Source: Saprospiraceae bacterium (lineage in GTDB: Bacteria; Bacteroidota; Bacteroidia; Chitinophagales; Saprospiraceae). Taken from it: 64,000 bases of DNA. The translations under genes were made by a program, and so were the position numbers. Below the pieces are notes generated by a model, which saw only the letters and a list, made by a program, of their open reading frames with translations, did no database searches and was not told the origin of the DNA. This document shows, in pieces, positions 41,346 through 42,948 of the stretch. Positions within the stretch are counted from its first letter, which is position 1. Each line of letters begins with the position of its first letter. The stretch is from positions 1-64,000 of the forward strand of contig JABDMH010000056.1 in NCBI GenBank assembly GCA_013001595.1. The letters are read 5' to 3'.

Positions 41346-41615
41346 TTATTCAGAAAGGTCGATCCAATCTAGGTCAAGCTTTTCGCTAAATACTTTAAAA
41401 ACCAAAGCAGACTTCTGCTCCTGGGAAAATACTTCTTTGATGGCCGACTGTATGGCCGTCATAACAGCATCGATGTGGCCAGTCACCTGGGTACTCATGT
41501 GATTGGTTCGAATCGTAAGGTCAGCATGAGATTTGAGCACTCCAATGAAGTCTAACACCGTCTCACCATAGCTGCTTTGTAAGGGATAGAGGCTGATTTC
41601 AACAGTTATCTGCAT
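41346..41615 (-). CDS. YkoF / MTH1187-like thiamine-binding family protein
   Basis: 89 aa single ferredoxin-like domain beginning MQITVEISLYPLQSSYGETV and including LTIRTNHMSTQVTGHIDAVM. It is similar to the small MTH1187/YkoF group that binds thiamine or its pyrimidine part, normally as a soluble dimer or tetramer. No thi genes are nearby. First gene of a minus-strand group running into the lipoprotein and M4 protease genes. Confidence 0.65.
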   Translation of the reverse strand: MQITVEISLYPLQSSYGETVLDFIGVLKSHADLTIRTNHMSTQVTGHIDAVMTAIQSAIKEVFSQEQKSALVFKVFSEKLDLDWIDLSE

Positions 41616-41681
41616 AGATGTGAATAAATATTTATGTGTTCTAGCTTAAAATCTTAGGAATAAACGTTTATTGGCAATATA

Positions 41682-41709
41682 TTTGTTAAATCTTTAATTA
41701 GTAACTTTT
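41682..41709 (+). promoter_or_regulatory. Promoter-like -33/-7 pair of a candidate small RNA
   Basis: TTTG at 41682-41685 and TAACTTTT at 41702-41709 (one mismatch to TAnnTTTG) are 16 nt apart, close to the Bacteroidota spacing. No + strand gene follows, only a terminator 140 nt on. Confidence 0.45.
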
Positions 41710-41715
41710 TCTCAT

Positions 41716-41888
41716 ATGAAAGAGTATTGAAGATGCTTGAACTTTTTTATTAAGAAAATCGTTAAGATTTAAATAACTGAAAAAGATACTCTTACAAGAG
41801 AGTTTATCATAAAGATGTAGTTTTCTTATTTTGAGACCTTAGTCGAATAGCCCGGATTTGAAATGTCAGATCCCGGGCTTTTCTTTTG
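41716..41888 (+). ncRNA. Candidate small non-coding RNA (about 173 nt)
   Basis: Bounded by a promoter-like pair and a strong terminator, with no open frame of note. AAGAGTAT (41720-41727) is complementary to ATACTCTT (41786-41793), and a U-rich/A-rich pairing inside (CTTTTTTATT with AATAACTGAAAAAG) extends that arm. It does not match an RNA class I can name; 6S-like RNA is one possibility. Both ends are estimates. Confidence 0.45.
41849..41888 (+). terminator. Strong rho-independent terminator
   Basis: AGCCCGG (41849-41855) pairs with CCGGGCT (41873-41879), extended by AT/AT across a bulge, followed by TTTTCTTTT. It points along the + strand, although no + strand gene lies upstream, which supports the candidate RNA before it. 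Confidence 0.8.
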
Positions 41889-41992
41889 GAAGTAATCCGC
41901 GGATACAATTGCACCACCCAAGTCTTGAAAAAACGCACATCTCATCAAAAATAGGCTCATTTATAACGATGGCAGTTTCTGGGAAGCGCTTA

Positions 41993-42185
41993 CTAGTGTA
42001 ACGTCTTGTAAGTAAATGTATAGTTTGGGATAGTTTTTTTGTGCCAGATCGAATCTGTACGCCGACCGAAGCGTCGGTAGAAACAAAACCGAGCATAGCA
42101 TGTGCTACCTAAGGATTTTGGTGATGCAGAGTTGGTGCAAGAGAACATGCCAAACTGTGTAACTATTTGCGAGACGTTGCACTAG
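41993..42185 (-). repeat. Long palindromic element, family A copy 2 (193 bp)
   Basis: Both ends read CTAGTG-T/C-AACGTCT-T/C-G inward (from 41993 and from 42185). On the minus strand it carries TTGCACCAACTC (42140-42129) exactly 45 nt from its end, then ATCCTTAGGTAGC, matching copy 1 at 19857-20023. The inner part also holds CCGAC/GTCGG and TAGC/GCTA hairpins. It starts 1 nt after the stop codon of the ABC ATPase gene and has the same direction as that gene, again as in copy 1. Confidence 0.8.
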
Positions 42186-42186
42186 T

Positions 42187-42948
42187 CTAGTCCTTCAAGG
42201 CAGTGTCTCGCAATCTCTTGAGAAAGGGAGATGCAAACATGAAGTCATGAAGGAGGGCATTGTCACTTTCCAGCACCTCGCTTTTTGTTCCCTTCCATGC
42301 CAGCTCACCTAAGTATAACAAATTGATCGAATCTCCAATCTGCATTACTGAATTCATGTCATGTGTGTTCACAATCGTAGTGATGTTGTTTTCGGTCGTG
42401 ATCCCATCAATCAGGTCGTCAATTAAGATGGATGTCTTTGGATCAAGGCCAGAGTTGGGTTCATCGCAAAAAAGGTATGTAGGCTTCAGGACAATGGACC
42501 GTGCAATGCCTACCCTTTTTTGCATGCCTCCACTCGTCTCAGATGGAAATTTGTAATTGTTTCCCGTCAAGCCAACACGCTCCAGGCAATAGTTCACCCG
42601 GTCGAGTTTTTCCTTTTTGGTCTTATTGGTGAACATATCCAGTGGAAAACGTACATTCTCCTCTACGGTCATAGAATCGAACAGTGCAGATCCTTGAAAA
42701 AGCATGCCAACACGCATCCTTATTTGTCTAACTTGCTTCCTTGTGAGCGACAGAAAGTTGGTATCGTCATACCAAACCTCCCCTGAACTGGGCAATATCA
42801 GTCCTGCCAAGATCTTAAGCAGGACTGTTTTCCCAGCTCCACTCTTACCAATGATCAGATTGCATTTTCCAGTCTCAAAGGTGATGTTGATGTCTCGCAA
42901 GACAGAAGTCTCTCCAAAGGATTTGAATATATTCTTGGCAAGAATCAT
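42187..42948 (-). CDS. ABC transporter ATP-binding protein, Mla-type
   Basis: 253 aa ATPase of the MlaF family, working with the MlaE-like permease in lipid transport between membranes. Walker A IIGKSGAGKTVLL, signature ETSGGMQKRVGIARSI, Walker B YLFCDEPNSGLDP, and H-loop VNTHDMNSV are all present. It overlaps the permease gene by 4 bp. An MlaD-type (MCE) gene, the usual third partner, is not in the window. The stop codon is followed after one base by a palindromic repeat. Confidence 0.9.
   Translation of the reverse strand: MILAKNIFKSFGETSVLRDINITFETGKCNLIIGKSGAGKTVLLKILAGLILPSSGEVWYDDTNFLSLTRKQVRQIRMRVGMLFQGSALFDSMTVEENVRFPLDMFTNKTKKEKLDRVNYCLERVGLTGNNYKFPSETSGGMQKRVGIARSIVLKPTYLFCDEPNSGLDPKTSILIDDLIDGITTENNITTIVNTHDMNSVMQIGDSINLLYLGELAWKGTKSEVLESDNALLHDFMFASPFLKRLRDTALKD

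Follow-up and report, generated by a model that had tools for sequence, protein, structure and literature searches.

The window, a stretch of 64,000 nucleotides of a Saprospiraceae bacterium (contig JABDMH010000056.1, positions 1 to 64,000 of the forward strand), carries on its plus strand at 41.68-41.89 kb what its sequence indicates to be a free-standing gene for a small RNA, preceded by promoter-like boxes and closed by a strong intrinsic terminator. It likely encodes a trans-acting, Hfq-independent base-pairing small RNA (sRNA), in which a nearly invariant core is predicted to pair at the start codons of its targets, the clearest of them being ftsL (ten genera). As far as sequence comparison can tell, the RNA founds a Saprospiraceae sRNA family without a match in Rfam 15. 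The conservation of the RNA gene and, with controls, the complementarity of its core were computed; transcription, repression and a physiological role are inferred. The features of the locus and of its convergent neighbour are as follows:

41678-41685, plus strand: candidate -7 box TATATTTG, identical in 6/6 aligned relatives and a rival to the promoter of the initial annotation.
41682-41685 (TTTG) and 41702-41709 (TAACTTTT), plus strand: the promoter TTTG-N16-TAACTTTT of the initial annotation, kept here as an alternative that would place the start at about 41715.
41720-41727 and 41786-41793, plus strand: AAGAGTAT and ATACTCTT, the 8-bp pairing of the initial annotation, present in the window.
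41740-41763, plus strand: 5' hairpin H1 in the genus-specific half, with 85.2% of cells paired and 2/9 pairs changed on both sides in six sequences.
41788-41803, plus strand: 5' hairpin H2 (ACTCTT...AGAGT), with 83.3% of cells paired and 1/5 pairs changed on both sides in six sequences.
41810-41848, plus strand: conserved block TAAAGATGTAGTTTTCTTATTTTGAGACCTTAGTCGAAT, from the alignment of 70 loci.
41819-41841, plus strand: nearly invariant core AGTTTTCTTATTTTGAGACCTTA, from the alignment of 70 loci.
41849-41879 and 41880-41888, plus strand: intrinsic terminator, a GC-rich stem followed by the T tract TTTTCTTTT, from covariation and fold.
42187-42948, minus strand: convergent neighbour, presumably an ABC ATPase of the MlaF type, whose cluster lies next downstream in many loci.

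All the pieces described in the initial annotation (TTTG, TAACTTTT, the 8-bp pair, the GC-rich stem and the T-run) were located where it had put them. Its remark that no plus-strand gene explains the terminator also holds, since the flanking genes are all on the minus strand and no plus-strand reading frame of at least 60 aa occurs at 41682-41888. The sole listed frame overlapping the locus is a mechanical minus-strand ORF (41866-42096), and a small ORF as the product was rejected, because stops break all three plus-strand frames of 41690-41888, including the core block. As to the promoter, boxes are indeed present, but their assignment in the window is uncertain between two candidates. The first, TATATTTG, fits what we take to be the Bacteroidota -7 box consensus, TAnnTTTG, and overlaps the TTTG (41682-41685) that had been read as the -33 element; it has no evident -33 TTG of its own in the window. 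In the second, TTTG-N16-TAACTTTT, the TTTG is kept in 6/6 aligned relatives and TAACTTTT is conserved less well. The sites of the RNA locus were not among the output of a generic promoter and terminator scan, presumably because of the bulged hairpin and the Bacteroidota-type promoter.

The stretch 41708-41888 folds at -45.5 kcal/mol and beats 200/200 dinucleotide shuffles (mean -31.6, z -3.9). The folded RNA that had been proposed is only partly borne out. H1 and H2 do better than its 8-bp helix in six close relatives, where jointly 84.5% of their cells are paired, a value equalled by 0/500 shuffles; the 3 pairs changed on both sides in these six sequences are matched by 87/500 shuffles. The long-range AAGAGTAT/ATACTCTT helix, with which H2 competes, is not conserved (in six sequences 59.0% of its cells are paired, against 56.9% in shuffles). 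By prediction the core is only about half open, its unpaired fraction being 0.24-0.55 in ten members, a point against the base-pairing reading; a weak hairpin within it shows no covariation across the 70 loci, so that no verdict comes from it.

As suggested at the outset, conservation was sought in related Saprospiraceae, and the gene was found there with a strongly covarying terminator. A blastn search of 60 relatives gave matches in 17 genomes, the window's own included: all five other searched genomes of the genus match at 75-82% identity (in G005 a contig end truncates the copy), and in nine more genera of the family only the 3' part matches. Two weak, short matches in genomes from outside the family, G044 and G052, were not counted as the RNA. 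A pattern of the 23-nt core, allowing up to 3 mismatches, was found in 87/199 family genomes, 65 of them with 0-1 mismatch. Dropping L006, six weak pattern hits, four duplicates, three 3-mismatch hits and the identical L067 left an aligned set of 70 distinct loci, in which AGTTTTCTTATTTTGAGACCTTA is nearly invariant, preceded by AAAGANGT and followed within ~15 nt by the terminator stem, while the 5' half of the RNA varies between genera. This invariant core, absent from the initial annotation, is the most telling feature of the gene. The terminator forms an 11-pair stem in which 10/11 pairs are changed on both sides and 90.8% of cells are paired over the 70 sequences; the values for the whole structure, in the alignment from which that structure was itself derived, were reached by 0/500 shuffles. 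Upstream of the core, TAnnTTTG occurs within 220 nt in 44/69 loci versus 13.0 +/- 3.3 in shuffles, and TTG-N17-21-TAnnTTTG in 16/69 loci versus 1.2 +/- 1.1. Because the TAnnTTTG boxes lie from ~32 to 213 nt before the core, the length of the RNA seems variable; judging from these boxes it is apparently ~170-195 nt in the window's genus and as little as ~100 nt in others.

Second copies were seen in several genomes. In genus g67 three genomes (G172, G710, G729) contain the core twice, the additional copy differing slightly (TAGTTTTCTTTATTTGAGAC); in G172 (L155, contig C10 72885-72961) this copy is followed by a terminator of its own. Weaker RNA-like second copies with an altered core ahead of a terminator occur at L370 (G072), L168 (G105) and L387 (G162). 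The latter three may be carriers of other seeds.

A covariance model of core and terminator reaches at least 50 bits in 73/199 family genomes, and members with recognisable core and terminator exist below that score (G016, 35 bits; G077, 40 bits). In a 395-genome sample of the class, matches beyond the family all stay below 40 bits, the best of them at 39.2 bits; five outside matches inspected in this sample are terminators without the core, and the lone outside match in a sample of the order (G626, L170) has no terminator behind it. A scan of a genome collection returned at least 80 loci (at least 119 stretches), of which 57 bear Saprospiraceae or Saprospirales in their titles and 71 fit the covariance model; the named species Membranihabitans marinus is among the carriers of the RNA (L241, L260). 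Nine collection loci fail the model; inspection covered six, all with other titles (L199, L211, L216, L225, L266, L267) and none with a terminator, leaving L190, L193 and L235. When mapped onto a tree of 62 MraW proteins, the canonical form of the RNA (34 rows) needs two changes. One group of 30 (support 83/87; midpoint root, many forks weakly supported) contains all 22 genomes without called RNA, all six divergent ones, G112 and G201. This grouping suggests that the RNA probably dates from early in the history of the family and has been lost or become blurred in that group.

A search of 36 RNA-bearing genomes with the reverse complement of the core revealed two species of one genus in which ~24 nt just before the start codon of ftsL can pair with the core, interrupted by a single mismatch and a single gap. 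The gene was assigned to FtsL by Pfam PF19579 in G167 (5.4e-24) and in the window's genome, and it lies between two genes that we take to be mraW and ftsI from their features and gene order. The mraW-ftsL junction was read in 32 and finally in 109 genomes (70 RNA-bearing, 39 without called RNA). At a threshold of -25 kcal/mol, chosen after the data were seen, a junction-core duplex was predicted in 18/70 RNA-bearing genomes versus 0/39 without called RNA (Fisher p 0.0002, which ignores relatedness; presence and absence of the RNA are non-independent cases, since the genomes without called RNA fall within one tree group). Over the same 70 genomes, such duplexes averaged 0.4 for 60 shuffled cores and never exceeded 2, and the reversed core gave 0. 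The contrast shrinks at a looser -21 kcal/mol, with 28/70 RNA-bearing genomes versus 6/39. Among the 32 junctions, six beat all 200 dinucleotide-shuffled and all 200 permuted cores; at -20 kcal/mol the core scored 8 of the 32, a count equalled by one permuted core, and no shuffled core exceeded 6.

Of the 18 strong sites, 15 are at the start of ftsL, between -31 nt and +51 nt of the first possible start codon, and the other three are off the start, two in the 3' end of mraW and one broken up upstream. Eight genera (g3, g26, g62, g70, g75, g87, g93, g108) use a AATAAGAAAACTAC-like register of pairing and two (g25, g107) use the other half of the core, in a GGTCTCAAAAT(A/T)AG register. In 7/7 genera with two readable species of which one has a start site, the second species has the site too. 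Among the genomes with the site is a complete one (locus L369). The codons of the 13 coding-register sites, read by eye, are always AAG/AGG, AAA and ACT/GCT, so that the synonymous positions are those that pairing requires. G098 and G030 have an exact 14-mer at ftsL, yet their duplex energy is above -25. In genus g66 (L395/L419 of G071; L489 of G171) the site falls instead within the 3' end of mraW, some 60-110 nt ahead of ftsL, and the C-terminus of MraW reads NKKTT in G071 versus NKKPI in the g107 query, a change that creates the strong core match. Complementarity of the seed to a start region is found for ftsL in these ten genera and not for ftsL in the window's own genome, which has no strong site (-12.5 to -19.8 kcal/mol depending on the stretch).

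The best-surviving competitor to base pairing holds that the core is a protein-binding or processing signal of a protein-titrating RNA, with the ftsL complementarity as a by-product in some lineages or a matter of chance. For a single seed the core would be unexpectedly long and invariant, both of its boxes, TAGTTTTCTT and TTGAGACC, survive in 6/8 divergent members despite an altered spacer (L158 and L162 are altered in the boxes), and 52/70 RNA-bearing genomes have no ftsL site at -25 kcal/mol, all of which speaks for such a signal. We nevertheless consider it unlikely, because shuffled and reversed cores fail to reproduce the strong ftsL complementarity, the same gene is hit by two registers of one core, and synonymous positions track the pairing.

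Under the favoured base-pairing reading, further candidate targets are suggested by a 14-mer search that gave at least nine exact non-self matches among those listed. Of these nine, three are at ftsL starts, one is in mraW, one is ambiguous and one is inside a gene that we take to be murG-like. Two precede, by 16-19 nt, the starts of two homologous secreted proteins, each from a different genus (41.5% identity over ~500 residues; the SdrD_B domain was tested in one), and one lies 14 nt before the start of an N-acetylmuramoyl-L-alanine amidase (Amidase_3, G117). An automatic rule, which misses one of the SdrD_B-type sites and includes the ambiguous match, places 6/9 listed exact matches at translation starts versus 7.0% of random positions (p 8e-6). 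One-mismatch matches are weakly enriched (7/40 at starts, p 0.02); the seven include ftsB/divIC (PF04977) in G113, a genome that also has an ftsL site. A lytic transglycosylase gene (SLT) of G098 likewise begins with a site of one mismatch. We list ftsB/divIC, peptidoglycan hydrolases and some secreted proteins as further predicted targets, each in one or two genomes. In a GGTCTCAAAATAAGA search with 1 mismatch, most of the inspected second matches other than ftsL are inside coding regions and look like chance. A target scan of the 64 kb window (69 frames) yielded a best value of -19.3 kcal/mol and none convincing, and the best candidate in the window's own genome is a weak one (-18.0 kcal/mol), a site with one mismatch that lies 18 nt ahead of a gene for a secreted leucine-rich-repeat protein.

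The position of the gene also bears on whether it acts in cis, as an antisense RNA or a bidirectional terminator of the convergent mlaF-type gene. In 29/71 loci a member of the mlaF-type cluster follows directly downstream on the opposite strand, and it comes second in 3 more, among which the window is counted owing to the intervening mechanical ORF. Against this stand most of the remaining loci, where different genes adjoin the RNA, and four loci (L008, L011, L082, L093) with the mlaF-type gene upstream on the same strand as the RNA. Moreover, 28/30 genomes without called RNA keep the mlaF-type gene, and a loose core pattern past its stop codon was found in 0/27 readable genomes of this kind (two of them readable for <200 nt); nor does a terminator need an invariant core. 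A cis element is thus very improbable, and since the neighbours change while core and terminator stay, the RNA is not a leader; we rejected a leader, riboswitch or antisense RNA of the mlaF-type gene on the same grounds, varying neighbours and genomes without called RNA that keep the gene with no core beside it. Together with its conservation, the covarying terminator, the enriched promoter boxes and the lack of a fixed neighbour argue for a separate transcription unit, in keeping with the small-RNA gene with its own promoter and terminator that the initial annotation had proposed. Upstream of the RNA in the window (41346-41615, minus strand) lies a small gene for an 89-aa protein, whose cluster is beside the RNA in 7/71 loci, and a tRNA gene (~84 bp) occurs within ~2 kb of the RNA in 4/10 scanned loci (L012, L013, L156, L160).

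With respect to known families, Rfam 15 gave 0 matches at gathering score over the whole window, and ten loci of relatives gave only tRNAs; the best sub-threshold match, an L20 leader (18.3 bits, gathering 58.7), aligned mainly via the terminator. The RNA has no match in phages or plasmids that would indicate a mobile element. A flavobacterial 6S family exists, and the initial annotation had suggested comparison with 6S models, which comparable length and a free-standing gene invite; a 6S-type RNA that binds RNA polymerase is, even so, a negligible prospect here, as searching 41600-42000 at E up to 10 gave no 6S match (RF00013), what is conserved is a block of sequence, and six relatives folded singly share no long bulged helix. 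In the open-access literature searched, no paper joined small RNA, noncoding RNA and Saprospiraceae, and among the matches listed no title or abstract start described such an RNA.

Hfq (PF17209) was over cut-off in 0/80 family genomes, with one weak partial match in the 80, and the same search matched 5/14 control genomes, E. coli among them; pairing must accordingly act without Hfq or via another chaperone. The conserved working part of the trans-acting RNA would be 41810-41848, a seed ahead of the terminator hairpin, and pairing of the core with A-rich sequence around target start codons would block ribosome loading. Bacteroidota mRNAs are described as having no Shine-Dalgarno sequences and as favouring adenine at -3 (PMC6847099). 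With start regions that are A-rich and lack Shine-Dalgarno sequences, a U-rich core could compete with the ribosome at several mRNAs. The outcome would be repression, to judge from the position of the sites and by analogy with DicF on ftsZ, and restraint of septation and wall remodelling is a plausible role in view of the ftsL, ftsB/divIC and hydrolase candidates. A more specific proposal, which we offer tentatively as possible rather than probable, is an old, Hfq-less Saprospiraceae sRNA whose single long, invariant seed is aimed at the A-rich start regions of a regulon for division and cell wall (ftsL, ftsB/divIC, amidase, lytic transglycosylase), by which it would control the supply of the FtsL/FtsB module of the divisome; different targets would dock on different halves of the seed, so that the seed stays constant as the regulon drifts. 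An sRNA this widespread, whose 23-nt core hardly changes, in a family without detected Hfq, offers a handle on base-pairing regulation there and may serve as an example of target sites that, from genus to genus, shift along an unchanging seed. Should the ftsL pairing be true, the RNA also joins the sRNAs that act on the divisome, of which, to our knowledge, there are few.

Trans-acting sRNAs have been described in Bacteroides thetaiotaomicron, of the same phylum (PMC7366714); the comparison in sequence went through Rfam, where the Saprospiraceae RNA has no match. StsR and DicF are likened to the Saprospiraceae RNA by function only, from their descriptions. DicF of Escherichia coli is described as a prophage-encoded RNA of 53 nt whose 5' end is cut from a longer transcript (PMC5069750). 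Like DicF as described there, the Saprospiraceae RNA would be a small RNA with a Rho-independent 3' end that pairs at the start region of a division-gene mRNA and has further targets (PMC5069750). It differs in that DicF targets the ribosome-binding site of ftsZ whereas the predicted target here is ftsL, and in that it seems to be free-standing, chromosomal and family-wide, in hosts without detected Hfq (PMC5069750). StsR of Rhodobacter sphaeroides is reported to bind both the dcw 5' UTR and UpsM, an sRNA that originates from this UTR, to promote cleavage by RNase E and to bind Hfq (PMC8307010, PMC5089854). Its site is thus the dcw 5' UTR, while that predicted for the Saprospiraceae RNA is the ftsL start within the cluster (PMC8307010). 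The action of StsR on the dcw leader, as described, is the nearest regulatory parallel (PMC8307010).
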